45,094 nucleotides of DNA, taken from Clostridiales bacterium (GTDB taxonomy: Bacteria; Bacillota; Clostridia; HGM11327). The notes under the pieces were generated by a model. That model ran no database searches and was not told the origin of the DNA. It saw nothing but the letters and a program-made list of their open reading frames with translations. This document shows positions 3,916 to 38,127 of this stretch, in pieces. Numbering within the stretch: the stretch's first letter is position 1; each line of letters starts with the position of its first letter. Where the stretch lies: NCBI GenBank assembly GCA_015056475.1, contig SVGF01000003.1, positions 1 through 45,094 of the forward strand, given 5' to 3'. Position numbers and translations under genes: made by a program.

Positions 3916-6228
3916 ATGAATATATTTACAAAGAATTTCATATCGTCGGGCTTTGGCTACGGCAATGCCGAAAATCCCCATTGTGCCCCACTTTTCCGTA
4001 AAACTTTTGATCTTGACAAATTACCCGAAAAGGCATCCTTGCTCATTACGGGCTTGGGCTTTTACCGCCTATTTATCAATTCAAAGGAGATCACAAAGGG
4101 GCATTTATCCCCATCCATTACAGACCCGGGGCTTATAGTTGCCTTTGACAAATACGATATCAAGCCATATCTCACAAAGGGCAAAAACGTTATAGGCGTT
4201 ATACTCGGCTCCGGATTCCGCTCAAGTATTTTAGGAATGTTTGCTGCAGGTAATTCGCTTGCAGGCGGAGATATGCTTTTGGCGCTCGCTTGTGATATTG
4301 ACGGCGAGATCTTTGAGGCTGATGAATCCTTTAAGGTGCACACCTCTCCCATACTTATGAATGACCTCAGATTTGGTGAGCACTACGATGCGCGCCTTGA
4401 AAAAGAAACAGACGGCTGGTTACTCCCCGAATTTGACGATTCTGAGTGGACAAACGCTCGCATAAACGATATTCCGCGCGGTGAGCAACGCATTTGCACA
4501 GCTCCTCCCATTAAAACAAGAAGAATTCTTACCCCCGTAAAGATATGGCGCGAGGATGACGGCATCATATACGATTTTGGTCAGAATGGTGCAGGGCTTT
4601 TATGCTTACACACCAACCTCCCCGAGGGCAGAAGAATAGCCGTTGACTTTGCAGAATACCTTTGGAACGGTAGATTCTATAACGAAACAATTACCGGCTC
4701 GGGTCCAAAAACAAAGGAATATCCATTTGGAAGCCAGAATTATATATACGTTTCAAAGGGCGGCGAGCAGCATTACAAGACGTCGTTTACGTATCAAGGC
4801 TTCAGATATGCTAAGGTTTACGGAATAAGCGACGAAGAAGCAACCCCCGAGCTTTTCACGTTTGAGCTGATGTCATCCGAAATGCGTGAAAGAGGAAATT
4901 TTGAATGTTCCGATGATATTCTTAACGCCGTTCAGAAATTAACGCGCGAGGCAACTCACTCAAATATGTTCCACATTCCAACCGACTGTCCGCACAGAGA
5001 AAAGAACGGTTGGACCGCGGACGCCGCAGTATCGTCCGTACATATGCTTCTCAATCTTGAAAGCGAGGGCGTATTCAACGAGTGGATGCACTCAGTAGCT
5101 GCCGCCATCGATAAAAACGGCGCAATGCCCGGCTGTGTGCCAGCACCTCCCGGAATGTTCTATGATTCATGGAACGGTCCCGGTTGGGATGCAGTTTTGG
5201 TTGAGATACCGTACAGATTGCTTGAACTGAGAGATGACCTCAAGAGCGCAAGAGTTGCAGCCCCGGCAATGTTCCGTTACGTTGCATACACACTCACAAG
5301 ACGTGATGAGAACGGACTCGTTCATATCGGACTTGGCGATTGGATGCCCCCGCACGATCCCATCAAAGCGCCTCGCGAGCTTACCGATACTATAATGTGC
5401 TACGATATTGCGCGCAAAGCCGCACTTTTATATGACAAGCTCTCAATGCCTGAGGTATCCGAATTCTGCTTTAAGGTTGCTCAAAATTACAGAAAAGCAG
5501 TAAGAGAGCATCTTATTGACACCGAAAACTGCATCGCGGCAGGTAATTGCCAAACGTCGCAGGCAATGGCGATATGCCTTAATATATTCGAGCCACACGA
5601 GCTCAAAAAAGCAACAGCTGTACTCAAGAGCATAGTTGAGGAGCTTGATTATCACGTTGATTGCGGTGTACTCGGCATGAGATATATTTTCAGAGCACTA
5701 AGCATAGGCGGTTATACCGACGTTGTTTACAAAATGATAGTTAACCCCATAGCACCATCGTATGCCGACATGGTATTCAGAGGCGAAACAACTCTCGCTG
5801 AGGACTTCAACGCGCTCGGTCAACGCATTAATTCAAGAAATCACCACTTCCTCGGTGACGTTTCCGCTTGGTTTATTGACACTGTATGCGGTATAAAGGT
5901 GAACCCCGAGATGAAAGGATCACTCTCTAACGCTAATAGGACGGGTAAATTTGCCCATTATGACGGTGCATCAAGGGTGGATATAATTCCGCACCTGCCC
6001 GAAGCACTCTCATACGCAAAGGCATATCACGAAACGCCCTACGGAACGGTAAAAGTTGAGCTTAAGCGAGTAAGAGAGGACTGGATAAGCATAAAGGTAA
6101 ACGTTGACGGTGAGCTTCACGGAAGAATTCTTCCGCCCGAAGGATATTTATTCGACGGATGCGGCGAATATCCCCTCGAAACCGGTGAATTTGACGCATT
6201 TAACCACGAAAGCGGCGGCTGGATGTAA
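3916..6228 (+). CDS. Alpha-L-rhamnosidase (GH78)
   Basis: A 770-residue inverting glycosidase that would release terminal L-rhamnose from pectin side chains or glycosides. N-terminal beta-sandwich domains cover about 1-330, including the YDFGQNGAG segment typical of the family. The (alpha/alpha)6 catalytic domain follows with TDCPHREKNGW at 356-366, the GH78 signature containing an essential Asp. RGETTLAEDFN is at about 622-632, where the family carries a catalytic Glu. A C-terminal beta-sandwich ends the protein. There is no signal peptide, so it probably acts on imported oligosaccharides. I chose the ATG at 3916 because AAAGGAG precedes it; an upstream in-frame ATG at 3886 lacks a site and sits at the -10 region. 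Confidence 0.9.
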   Translation: MNIFTKNFISSGFGYGNAENPHCAPLFRKTFDLDKLPEKASLLITGLGFYRLFINSKEITKGHLSPSITDPGLIVAFDKYDIKPYLTKGKNVIGVILGSGFRSSILGMFAAGNSLAGGDMLLALACDIDGEIFEADESFKVHTSPILMNDLRFGEHYDARLEKETDGWLLPEFDDSEWTNARINDIPRGEQRICTAPPIKTRRILTPVKIWREDDGIIYDFGQNGAGLLCLHTNLPEGRRIAVDFAEYLWNGRFYNETITGSGPKTKEYPFGSQNYIYVSKGGEQHYKTSFTYQGFRYAKVYGISDEEATPELFTFELMSSEMRERGNFECSDDILNAVQKLTREATHSNMFHIPTDCPHREKNGWTADAAVSSVHMLLNLESEGVFNEWMHSVAAAIDKNGAMPGCVPAPPGMFYDSWNGPGWDAVLVEIPYRLLELRDDLKSARVAAPAMFRYVAYTLTRRDENGLVHIGLGDWMPPHDPIKAPRELTDTIMCYDIARKAALLYDKLSMPEVSEFCFKVAQNYRKAVREHLIDTENCIAAGNCQTSQAMAICLNIFEPHELKKATAVLKSIVEELDYHVDCGVLGMRYIFRALSIGGYTDVVYKMIVNPIAPSYADMVFRGETTLAEDFNALGQRINSRNHHFLGDVSAWFIDTVCGIKVNPEMKGSLSNANRTGKFAHYDGASRVDIIPHLPEALSYAKAYHETPYGTVKVELKRVREDWISIKVNVDGELHGRILPPEGYLFDGCGEYPLETGEFDAFNHESGGWM

Positions 6229-33024: not shown

Positions 33025-33405
33025 TTATTCTGATTTATGTTTTTTGAGCTTTAAGTTAGTTAATTCGTAGCTTATTTCCAGAAGCCATCTGAGGGTATCG
33101 TCATCAGTATCATTGTTGAGCACAATGGAAAGCCAATGAGTTTTATTCATGTGGTAGGCGGGGTAAATACCTCCCATGCTCATGAATGAGCCCATCATTT
33201 CGGGGGCACATTTTAAGTTGACTATATCCACCGTTTTGTCACCTGCCAGTCCAAGCTTTGAGCAATGCACGCTCATAATTACGGCAAACCATTTATCGTT
33301 AGACTTATGGCGAAACACAACGGTGTTGTCATCCTTTGCAAACGGGCGCTCGGCTTTTTCTGAATACTCGGTTGCAATATACTCCTCAAGCTGATTTCTG
33401 GTCAT
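33025..33405 (-). CDS. MmcQ/YjbR-family protein
   Basis: A 126-residue protein of the MmcQ/YjbR family, which has a CyaY-like alpha/beta fold and has been suggested to bind DNA. FAVIMSVHCSKLGL, VDIVNLKC and the GIYPAYHMNKTHWLSI block are family hallmarks. AAGGTGAG precedes the ATG. It begins 16 bases after the stop of the large repeat protein, with no terminator between them, so both share one transcript. A nonsense codon in the upstream gene could therefore reduce its expression by polarity. Confidence 0.9.
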   Translation of the reverse strand: MTRNQLEEYIATEYSEKAERPFAKDDNTVVFRHKSNDKWFAVIMSVHCSKLGLAGDKTVDIVNLKCAPEMMGSFMSMGGIYPAYHMNKTHWLSIVLNNDTDDDTLRWLLEISYELTNLKLKKHKSE

Positions 33406-33421
33406 TTTAACTCACCTTTTA

Positions 33422-35452
33422 TTATATTATATCTGCGGCGATATCTTTGAGCACATCGTCGTCAATTACACCTTTGAGCTTTGCAATATCCTCAATAGAG
33501 AAATTCTCAGAATTATCGCTTATAAGGTCGGCAAGAACGTCTGGATCGATAATTGATGCAAGCTTTATTACCGTGTCAATATTTATCTCACAGCATTCCT
33601 GCACTATCTCGCGTATGCAATCGTCATCGATCAAGCCTCGAAGCATCAATACCTCGTCAATATCAAGATCGGATTCCATTGCAAGCTCTGCAACCTCATC
33701 GTCATCAATGTAGGTACTGAGCGATACAAGGTCATCGATCGAAAGCGGAGTCATATCTTCTGCAAGCTCAAATGCAGTATCCTCGTAAATTACGCCCTCG
33801 TTGATAAGGTCAATGATCTCATCGACCTCAAGCTCGCCGCTGAGGTTATCAAGCACGATCTCGTTGAGCTGATCCTCGGTCAAGACCTCCTTTAGCATTA
33901 TAAGGTCATGAACAGTAACCTCGCCCAATCTGTCCAAGCTGTCGCAAACTATTTCGTATATATCGTCCTCGTCAAGGATTCCGCCGAGCTTTAAGATATC
34001 GTCGATGGAGAGGTTGCCTCGATTTGAACGGCGACCCGATGTTGAGTTATTACCAAACTGATAATTATTGTTGCCTGAATAACGCTGATATTCCTTCTTG
34101 CACGTTTCCCATGCAGAGCCGTCTTTTATTGAACTAACTGCGCTTGGTTCGATAGCGCTTACGTCCTCAATAAGCTTTGCTCTCTCGGTTTCATCAAGCA
34201 TAGGATATATAAACGCTGCGGCATTTGTAATATCGTTCGCTTTGCTGTAGTAATTTTTTGCAATCTGCTTGAGTGCGGGCAATGATATTTTATCATATAC
34301 GTCCTTGATCTGAACAAAGCTCTTGCGATCGTTTGTATGCTCGATGGCGATATTATCTATTTCCTCCTGCGAGAATGCAAAATGAGCGTTTACTATTATC
34401 TTATATGCACCTGCGCCCCTTGAAAGAGAATTCATTGCGCACTGCTTTATAGTTTCATTTGAAAGCTGATCCTTAAAGCATACTACCTCAGCAAGGTCTG
34501 CACCGTTGGCACTCGCTTCAAGCACTAATTCGTTTATATCTCTGTCATCACCGGATGCGAACTTTGCGGCGATAATATCTCTAAGATTTGCACCCTGACT
34601 GCTCTTGTATTGGAAAAGCCAATCTGCAGTTTCCTTACTCATAAAGGGAGCAAAGCCCTGCATATCCGCTATTTTTGCGCCTTGATAGCTCTTTTTCTTG
34701 ATGAGACTATCAATATCACTTTGATTCATAAACGGAGCAAAAGCAACCATATCTGCTATTCTTGCGCCCATATCCGCCTTATAAGTTATCACCCAAGAGA
34801 TAGTGTCCTGACTTGCAAATGGAGCAAACGCCGTCATATCTGCAATTCTTGCACCTTGATAGCATTTTTCCTTCAAAATGGTATCAACTGCCTTTGAGGA
34901 AATAAACGGAGCAAACACTACTGCATCCGCAATGGGTGCGCCCTGACGTATCTTATTAACCACAAGCTTGTCAAGTACCTTTGTTGATACAAACGGTGCA
35001 TAGCCTGTAAGCTCGCAAAGCCTGCCGCCGTTTGCAATAAATTCCATGGCTTCAACGTCCTTATCGCCAAGCTCGCCGTCATCAAGATCAAAGTCCTCAT
35101 CGTTATTATCAGATGAGCTTTGATTTGAGGTTCTTCTTGACCACTCGATGCCGTTTAAGCAATTTGCAATAACGGCATTATCAATGCCAAGCTCTTTAAG
35201 ATCGTATTTGAGCTTATTCCACCCCTGCGGACCGTGGTTCAAGTAAGGTCCGATAAAGCTTGCGGCTTCAACAGCGTCACCCGTTTTTTCATATATGATC
35301 CTTGTGATCTCGTAGAGCGCGGGGTTGCTTATCTGCATAAGCACGCTTCTTATGGTTTTAACGTCCATAGTGTTATCTAAGTATGCGATCGCAAGCTCAT
35401 CCATATCAAGCTGTGTATGCATATGGCGCTCTTGTGTGAGAATCTTTACCAA
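33422..35452 (-). CDS. Tandem-repeat protein, C-terminal portion of an XRE/repeat protein split by TGA
   Basis: A 676-codon frame not recognised as a named family. It begins with one unit (about 15-104) of a helical repeat also found twice in the upstream ORF. An acidic linker (110-134) follows. Then come eight 29-residue units at about 142-375, centred on GARIADMxxFAPF. A fourth copy of the first repeat overlaps their end and runs to about 448, followed by an Asn/Ser/Arg-rich linker (455-480). Seven units of 26-31 residues finish the protein (481-676; LSIDDILKLGGILDEDDIYE type). The TTG at 35452 has no ribosome site; ATG at 35422 is the other possible start. The frame is continuous with the upstream ORF except for one TGA. 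Confidence 0.75.
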   Translation of the reverse strand: MVKILTQERHMHTQLDMDELAIAYLDNTMDVKTIRSVLMQISNPALYEITRIIYEKTGDAVEAASFIGPYLNHGPQGWNKLKYDLKELGIDNAVIANCLNGIEWSRRTSNQSSSDNNDEDFDLDDGELGDKDVEAMEFIANGGRLCELTGYAPFVSTKVLDKLVVNKIRQGAPIADAVVFAPFISSKAVDTILKEKCYQGARIADMTAFAPFASQDTISWVITYKADMGARIADMVAFAPFMNQSDIDSLIKKKSYQGAKIADMQGFAPFMSKETADWLFQYKSSQGANLRDIIAAKFASGDDRDINELVLEASANGADLAEVVCFKDQLSNETIKQCAMNSLSRGAGAYKIIVNAHFAFSQEEIDNIAIEHTNDRKSFVQIKDVYDKISLPALKQIAKNYYSKANDITNAAAFIYPMLDETERAKLIEDVSAIEPSAVSSIKDGSAWETCKKEYQRYSGNNNYQFGNNSTSGRRSNRGNLSIDDILKLGGILDEDDIYEIVCDSLDRLGEVTVHDLIMLKEVLTEDQLNEIVLDNLSGELEVDEIIDLINEGVIYEDTAFELAEDMTPLSIDDLVSLSTYIDDDEVAELAMESDLDIDEVLMLRGLIDDDCIREIVQECCEINIDTVIKLASIIDPDVLADLISDNSENFSIEDIAKLKGVIDDDVLKDIAADII

Positions 35453-35464
35453 TGAAGCCGCATC

Positions 35465-35467
35465 TCA
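35465..35467 (-). other. In-frame TGA interrupting a 1027-codon frame
   Basis: On the reverse strand the codons read GTG CTT TGA GAT GCG GCT. The ORF before (from 36505) and the ORF after (to 33422) are in the same frame. In the aligned preceding repeat unit the TGA position is occupied by Tyr236 (NYDA), nine residues after a conserved Trp. No frameshift or insertion is needed to join them. Confidence 0.9.
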
Positions 35468-36505
35468 AAGCACAGCAGGATGCTTGCTTCTCCATACCTT
35501 ACCGCTTAAAACGTCGTTTATTTTAGCATCGTCAGCACCGAGAGCCTTTAAGTCTGCAATCATCTTTTGCTTATCGTTATAATCAAGATAAGGTCCTATA
35601 AAGCCTGCCGCCTCTATTGCGTCACCCGTCTTTTGGTAAATTACTCTTGTGATCTCGTGAAGTGCAGGATTTGTTATAAGCATGAGCAGACTTCTTATTG
35701 TTGCAACGTCCATAGTCTTTTCAACGTAGGATATAGCAATATCGTCAATATCGCGCTGTGAGTAGCGGCGATTCTTAATGATATCGGTTACAGTCTGAGC
35801 ATCGTAGTTCTGCAATACGTACTTTTCTCTCCATGCTCTGCCGTTTATAACGCTTGAAACGTCTTCATCATCAGCACCGAGAGCCTTTAAGTCGCCTGCC
35901 ATTTTGATGCCGTCAAGAGTGCTGAGTAACGGACCAATAAAGCACGCCGCTTCAATGGCGTCACCCGTCTGCTCATAGCGAATTCTTGTAATTTCTTTGA
36001 GCGCGGGATAACTTATAAGAGAAAATTTCTCTCTTATCTTTACTATATCACCTGTTTGCTTTATATATTCTATTGCGGTTGAGTCGATCTGCTGCTGTGA
36101 ATAACGATTGCGATTAGAGAATACACCGTCAAAGTCAACATGCGGCTTGTTACTTTCTATATACTCCTTTATTGCCTGTGCCTTTATAGCCTCGATATCT
36201 ACGGATTCCGGCTCTGCCTTTACCTTAGCACTCTGTTCTCTGCCGAGCAAAACGTCAATGCTCGTTTCAAGCACGGTTGAAAGCGCGAGCAAATTGTCAA
36301 GGTCGGGCATGGTGTCGCCACGCTCCCAATTTGAAACTGCCTGAAAGCTTACGCCGAGCTTTTCTGCAAGCTCTGTCTGTGTGTAGCCCTTTTCCTTACG
36401 GTAGGTGGCTATTACCTTACCTATTTTTCTTACGTCCAATTTTGTGATCTCCTTTTGATCGTTCTTGCTTTGAGTTCTTCGATCGTTAAATCTGAAGCTT
36501 TTCAT
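35465..36505 (-). CDS. XRE-family regulator, N-terminal portion of the split repeat protein
   Basis: A 346-residue product if TGA stops translation. A Cro/CI-type helix-turn-helix is near residues 25-85 (YTQTELAEKLGVSFQAVSNW). Two copies of an about 88-residue helical repeat follow, at about 139-225 and 251-338. Each has the motifs PALxEITR, QTGDAIEAA or KTGDAIEAA, FIGP and DLKALGADD, and ends in a conserved Trp. The frame stops eight residues after the second Trp, within the run into a third unit. I take the ATG at 36505, six bases after GGGGG; the ATG at 36511 abuts that site. Dyads and half-sites in the upstream region suggest autoregulation. Confidence 0.85.
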   Translation of the reverse strand: MKSFRFNDRRTQSKNDQKEITKLDVRKIGKVIATYRKEKGYTQTELAEKLGVSFQAVSNWERGDTMPDLDNLLALSTVLETSIDVLLGREQSAKVKAEPESVDIEAIKAQAIKEYIESNKPHVDFDGVFSNRNRYSQQQIDSTAIEYIKQTGDIVKIREKFSLISYPALKEITRIRYEQTGDAIEAACFIGPLLSTLDGIKMAGDLKALGADDEDVSSVINGRAWREKYVLQNYDAQTVTDIIKNRRYSQRDIDDIAISYVEKTMDVATIRSLLMLITNPALHEITRVIYQKTGDAIEAAGFIGPYLDYNDKQKMIADLKALGADDAKINDVLSGKVWRSKHPAVL

Positions 36506-36561
36506 AAGCATCCCCCTTTTGTTGCTGTTTTAGAGTGTTTTGAGCTCTTACTCTTAAAACC

Positions 36562-36894: not shown

Positions 36895-38127
36895 ATGGCA
36901 GACAGAGTTCAGCTTACATTCTGGAATTATAACCAGTTTGCAAATTATCAGCCCCATATGCTTGAGGATTGGATAAACCTTGGCATGACAACACCGATCA
37001 CACCCTCGTTTGGCTTGAATTCAAGCGAGGAATTGTATAAAAAGTTCTATGAGATGCTTGACGATGCACACAACCGCGGTGTAGGGCTCATACTTCAGAT
37101 TCCCGATATCTATCTTTGGAGCTATCATGACAGGGAGAGCTTTATTAAGACGGCTCTTGTAGTTAAAGAAAAATTTGGAAGCCACCCCGCAGTTTGCGGC
37201 TTCTATGTAGGCGAAGAGCCCCACGGTGATGCAAAGGAATATTTTGAGGGCGTGAAGACTCTTAAGGAGATATTCCCCGACAAGATCTTCTATATGAATA
37301 TGGGCAGCATTGAGCGCACGGAAAGATGCGCACTCAAGGGCAGAGAGAGCATTACAAATTGGTGCTGCAGATACACAAAGGAAACGGGCAGCAACATCAT
37401 TGGCTACGGCTGCTATGCAGGTATGCTTGTTGACGGCACAGGTCTTTACGAGCATTTCCACAATATCAGAGAATTCGTTGAAGCAGGTAAGAAAGCTGGC
37501 GCTGACATCTGGGCTACAATGCTCTCCTCCGTTCACGATTTTTACAAGATACCCACAGCGGACGATTTCCGTTGGCAGTTGAATACATGCGTCGCTTGCG
37601 GATGTAAGGGTATAGTATGGTTCAGAATTTACGATAAATTGGTTGCAGGCGACTACCGCGAATCTCCCATTGATGAGTTTGGCAACAAGACGACTCATTA
37701 CTATGATCTTGCAAGAGTTCAGAATAAGTTTAACATTCTTTACGGCGAGATATTTGCAAAACTTAACCATAAGTATACATACGGCATTGGCGTAAGCTAC
37801 GGCGGATACCCCTACTACACAACTCCCAACGAATGCGATTGCGATTATATTGCAGGCGTTTCGGGCAGAATGGGTATGGTTTCGACATTTGTTGACGACG
37901 ACGGAGTTGATTATTGCGTTCTTATCAACACGGATCCCAAGCTTGCAGGCCATCTCAGCCTCACGTTTACTGATAAGGTGGAAAAGGTTGAGGAGGTATT
38001 CTACAACGGTAAGCAGCTCGACCTTAAGGTTAAGCGCGACGGTCAGCAGGGCAACCTCGCAATGGCTTCTGCTTGCTATGCACCCGGACAGATGTCACTC
38101 TTTAAGATAACAAAGGTTAAGGAATAA
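36895..38127 (+). CDS. Putative TIM-barrel glycoside hydrolase
   Basis: A 410-residue protein without signal peptide. Residues about 5-315 read as a beta/alpha barrel. An early barrel strand carries VGLILQIPD (63-71), and VCGFYVGEEPHGDA (100-113) at a strand end with Glu107/Glu108 resembles the acid/base position of clan GH-A enzymes. Later strands hold IWATMLSS and GIVWFRIYD. A small beta-domain (about 325-410) closes it, as in many glycosidases. I cannot name the family or substrate. It is rich in Cys. AAAGGA lies 9 bases before the ATG. It is divergent from the XRE/repeat gene. Confidence 0.55.
   Translation: MADRVQLTFWNYNQFANYQPHMLEDWINLGMTTPITPSFGLNSSEELYKKFYEMLDDAHNRGVGLILQIPDIYLWSYHDRESFIKTALVVKEKFGSHPAVCGFYVGEEPHGDAKEYFEGVKTLKEIFPDKIFYMNMGSIERTERCALKGRESITNWCCRYTKETGSNIIGYGCYAGMLVDGTGLYEHFHNIREFVEAGKKAGADIWATMLSSVHDFYKIPTADDFRWQLNTCVACGCKGIVWFRIYDKLVAGDYRESPIDEFGNKTTHYYDLARVQNKFNILYGEIFAKLNHKYTYGIGVSYGGYPYYTTPNECDCDYIAGVSGRMGMVSTFVDDDGVDYCVLINTDPKLAGHLSLTFTDKVEKVEEVFYNGKQLDLKVKRDGQQGNLAMASACYAPGQMSLFKITKVKE

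Follow-up and report, generated by a model that had tools for sequence, protein, structure and literature searches.

The window analyzed here, a stretch of 45,094 nucleotides from a Clostridiales bacterium (contig SVGF01000003.1), contains on its minus strand a single 1027-codon frame (36505-33422) whose sole internal stop is a TGA at 35467-35465, codon 347 when counted from the ATG at 36505 (Table 1). The first-pass annotation had described two same-frame open reading frames (ORFs) parted only by this TGA, and retranslation bears out both its coordinates and its repeat register. GC contents at the three codon positions follow the same periodicity on either side of the stop (0.51/0.35/0.44 before and 0.53/0.33/0.45 after), and the remaining five frames of the region carry between 29 and 97 stops. 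The earlier observation that nothing else is damaged downstream is likewise confirmed: 680 codons past the TGA are free of any other lesion, for which the chance probability at the given composition is about 1e-19 (8e-20). On the same strand, 16 bases past the end of the repeat gene, lies a YjbR-family gene (PF04237; window positions 33025-33405), and co-transcription of the two is likely. A divergently oriented gene at 36895-38127 encodes a 410-aa protein that is possibly glycoside-hydrolase-like by eye and has no Pfam match at E 0.001.

Table 1. Features of the interrupted frame, in window coordinates.
Feature	Coordinates	Strand	Basis or remark
Whole interrupted frame	33422..36505	-	1027 codons (internal TGA counted) and a final TAA; translation, periodicity, open length
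Ribosome-binding site of main start, AAAGGGGGA upstream of ATG 36505	36511..36519	-	anti-SD energy -10.9 kcal/mol
XRE/Cro-CI helix-turn-helix, residues ~26-89	36239..36430	-	Pfam HTH_3, 3.8e-18; NCBIfam RstR-like, 1.8e-16, under its cut-off
~105-aa helical repeat, copy 1	35816..36154	-	alignment
~105-aa helical repeat, copy 2	35471..35815	-	alignment
In-frame TGA, codon 347, next base G, at joint of repeat copies 2 and 3	35465..35467	-	sequence
~105-aa helical repeat, copy 3, immediately past the TGA	35135..35464	-	54% identity to copy 2
First in-frame ATG after the TGA	35420..35422	-	anti-SD -2.1 kcal/mol, equalled or surpassed by 53% of internal ATGs
APF array of ~29-aa helical repeats	34425..35065	-	self-comparison, period 29; also present in XRE proteins from other genera
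~105-aa helical repeat, copy 4, diverged, residues 703-806	34088..34399	-	31% identity to copy 2
Acidic ~27-31-aa helical repeats up to the C-terminus	33425..34024	-	self-comparison, offsets 26-31

The likely start of the frame is ATG 36505, whose anti-SD duplex (-10.9 kcal/mol) equals or surpasses that of 93% of gene starts, whereas the ATG at 36511, initially taken as the start, reaches only -3.0 kcal/mol. The encoded protein begins with a helix-turn-helix that matches Pfam HTH_3 over residues 32-86 (65.7 bits against a cut-off of 23), and PADLOC matches are confined to this domain. Beyond it, no family model in Pfam or NCBIfam scores above its cut-off, and searches against PDB sequences and PHROGs gave no matches. 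The remainder is a succession of divergent helical repeats. Three copies of a ~105-aa unit stand in tandem; the first and third, the latter starting at residue 348, share 52-54% identity with the second, and a profile of this unit matches copy 4 at E 5.8e-47, copy 4 itself being one of the model's four rows. Self-comparison further revealed, at residues ~480-690, about seven repeats of 29 residues each that carry an A-P-F motif, and the comparison of the ~105-aa profile with these APF repeats was not significant. For the ~105-aa repeat and the acidic array (33425-34024 and 35135-36154) we found no sequence relative above cut-off in Pfam, NCBIfam or PDB.

An AlphaFold model computed with no alignment is all-helical and weak (pLDDT 61, pTM 0.29). 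Its Foldseek matches are alpha-solenoids of a generic eukaryotic kind (TM-scores near 0.1), which we did not take as evidence of kinship. The intact protein would presumably serve in regulation, its solenoid binding a partner or a signal. Upon alignment of the repeats, the TGA falls opposite a tyrosine of copy 2, as had been noticed from the sequence. Rather than lying within the repeat, as had also been proposed, it occupies the joint between two units, which the model places in a low-confidence linker, outside any conserved helix.

Five genomes (G050, G095, G227, G309 and G386) encode proteins of 262-424 aa in which an XRE domain and APF repeats follow one another without interruption, and a further one, in G036, is split only by a contig end; such one-chain proteins are spread over several further genera within the bacterium's class. 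Both parts of the interrupted frame match the profile shared by these single-frame proteins, with the TGA between them. The same genome also encodes, on contig C117 (G000:C117:11988-12668, L092), an uninterrupted 226-aa XRE protein that scores 119 bits against the XRE-APF profile, a shorter and divergent relative with a close counterpart in G002:C230. Given the uninterrupted versions elsewhere in the class, fusion looks like the ancestral condition, and, together with the C117 protein, these homologues argue that head and solenoid are normally joined, a link which the TGA broke. Along with the repeat homology that spans the stop, the uninterrupted proteins of other genomes uphold the earlier view that the two ORFs are one protein.

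The intact homologues found for the interrupted frame are distant ones only. No orthologue covering the TGA site was found in the genome-contig and viral-contig collections, whole-genome searches of 99 and 391 relatives returned APF-repeat homologues only, and the same-genus genomes (94% and 79% complete) contain no match to the part beyond the helix-turn-helix. Beyond this gene, the ~105-aa unit matched only marginally (E about 2e-4) across 390 other genomes of the class. In the sister genus, locus L048 (G003:C51, ~3930-4490, minus strand; ORF L034:1387-1938) encodes an APF-repeat protein that retains just the C-terminal half of the helix-turn-helix (FQTVSNGDHDISMPD). The frames upstream of it are broken, and it is probably a decayed offshoot of the XRE-APF family.

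In this organism UGA is read as a stop. In 461 kb of the genome (about 23%, sampled as stretches), TGA ends 91 of 264 ORFs of 250 or more codons, and the TGA stops that the first-pass annotation had cited within the window (13342, 14838, 32954 and 43947) are genuine triplets closing open frames. RF2 is present and intact, none of the 30 tRNAs examined has a UCA anticodon, and the Trp-CCA tRNA is normal. SelA was detected in none of 21 genomes (this one and 20 relatives) by a search that recovers it in both controls, E. coli and M. jannaschii; the tRNA-Sec matches of this genome fall below the family cut-off, and the ones amenable to comparison coincide with ordinary tRNAs. The RNA following the TGA folds no more strongly than its shuffles and has no Rfam match. 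The assembly is a draft of 139 contigs and 79% complete, so that a factor absent from it is weak evidence alone. On the SelA, tRNA, RF2 and TGA-stop tests we reject selenocysteine insertion, a suppressor tRNA and reassignment of the code. Reassignment of TGA to an amino acid, in favor of which there is nothing beyond codon 347 itself, is refuted by the one third of long ORFs that end in TGA, the intact RF2 and the lack of a UCA tRNA among those examined, and we regard its probability as practically nil.

The sample also shows how unusual such a frame is in this assembly. It holds 14 pairs of ORFs that share a frame across a stop and show coding bias in both members. In 13 of them, a plausible start (mostly ATG, one GTG, most with a ribosome site) lies no more than 14 codons from the stop, so that these resemble ordinary gene boundaries. 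The frame described here is the only one of the 14 with coding homology across the stop. Interrupted genes are thus rare in the assembly, which argues against generally poor quality but remains compatible with a single base error. For sequence within 75 bases of the TGA, exact repeats in the sample do not exceed 15 bases, and for the gene as a whole the longest measures 23, making a repeat-driven misjoin unlikely. The 2040 bases downstream have acquired no stop or indel, which, if they evolved neutrally, bounds the divergence since the stop arose to about 1-4%, depending on the assumed share of indels. The absence of further lesions fits a recent event. Given the bound, a real mutation would be young; alternatively, the allele is unfixed, the base was called wrongly, or the downstream part continues to be translated.

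We thus see one frame with one lesion, in a genome that uses UGA as a normal stop and in which no dedicated recoding machinery was found. Very probably, a single lesion, counting mutation and base error together, interrupts a formerly continuous XRE-solenoid gene. Until recently, this gene would have been one continuous frame for an XRE-type DNA-binding regulator with a long, all-helical C-terminal solenoid. As sequenced, translation would begin at 36505 and mostly terminate at the TGA, leaving a 346-residue stump of the helix-turn-helix and two repeats, and the remaining 680 residues would be made at most in trace amounts, through ordinary leaky decoding of UGA or weak internal initiation. 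The perfect preservation of the downstream frame counts against a simple lesion, being equally expected if that part is still translated. That the lesion is a nonsense mutation carried by the organism has, in our estimate, about an even chance. A base error or a collapsed strain variant in the draft contig, with the organism's own gene intact, is somewhat less likely but a serious candidate: the assembly is fragmented and incomplete, and many internal-stop pseudogenes are assembly errors, chiefly at low coverage (Cooley and Wright 2024, PMC11017572). Against it stand the lack of longer exact repeats near the TGA, the lack of a variant copy of the gene on a second contig, and the lack of any other interrupted frame of this kind in the 461 kb.

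The undamaged downstream frame could also belong to a stable split gene, in which stump and solenoid are made as two proteins by re-initiation. The first-pass annotation had noted that the TTG at 35452 lacks a good ribosome site, which is correct (-2.7 kcal/mol, at background), but in treating it as the only downstream start it overlooked the in-frame ATG at 35422. This ATG begins the first helix of the repeat, so that, with the TGA at the repeat joint, both products would be clean domains. Yet its own ribosome site (-2.1 kcal/mol) is no better than those of random internal ATGs, it sits 42 bases beyond the stop, and homologues keep both parts in one chain; we consider a split gene improbable. 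Programmed readthrough, whose products would be a short form that binds DNA and a long one with the repeats, appears more doubtful still. Of the stop codons, TGA leaks most in E. coli, the more so when the next base is G, and tryptophan is usually inserted (PMC11126739). A G also follows the present TGA, as it does only 13 of the 91 TGA stops in the sample, and the codon aligns with a tyrosine of copy 2; by analogy, basal leakage is likely at this codon. However, leakiness of such size is common to many UGA codons, and we found no selenocysteine system, suppressor tRNA, structured element past the stop or second case in 461 kb, whereas RF2 is present. That a leaky UGA-G at the repeat joint might set the ratio of a short repressor to a long solenoid form, with tryptophan placed where the sister repeat has an aromatic residue, seems to us slightly less probable even than programmed readthrough in general. 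Among the three options originally listed, nonsense mutation and assembly error therefore stay, and regulated readthrough is left unsupported by the SelA, tRNA, RF2 and RNA-folding results and by the want of a second case.

Favoring a single lesion, we regard the interrupted gene itself as routine, and as a warning against inferring recoding from one stop in a draft assembly. More novel is the repeat architecture, which is unnamed and may deserve a profile and a structure: an XRE head followed by a solenoid of three repeat types that lack family models constitutes a small unnamed group of putative regulators. RNPP-type regulators such as PlcR combine an XRE domain with a helical TPR solenoid that binds a peptide. 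The general plan, a helix-turn-helix head on a helical solenoid, is common to both; in our protein, Pfam yields no TPR match, NCBIfam matches the helix-turn-helix only and no RNPP family is hit, and the PlcR-peptide-DNA structure 3u3w ranks 45th in the fold search (TMt 0.21), the model (pLDDT 61) being too poor for a claim of shared fold. With the nonsense-interrupted genes, or putative pseudogenes, of draft genomes (PMC11017572), the locus shares a single internal stop, an otherwise intact frame and an incomplete draft. The protein further resembles the XRE (HTH_3) proteins of the other genomes with C-terminal APF-type helical repeats of ~30 aa. Those are uninterrupted and much shorter than the 1027-aa frame, whose four ~105-aa units and long acidic tail were not found elsewhere, but all have in common an N-terminal XRE domain followed by A-P-F repeats, recognized by one profile.
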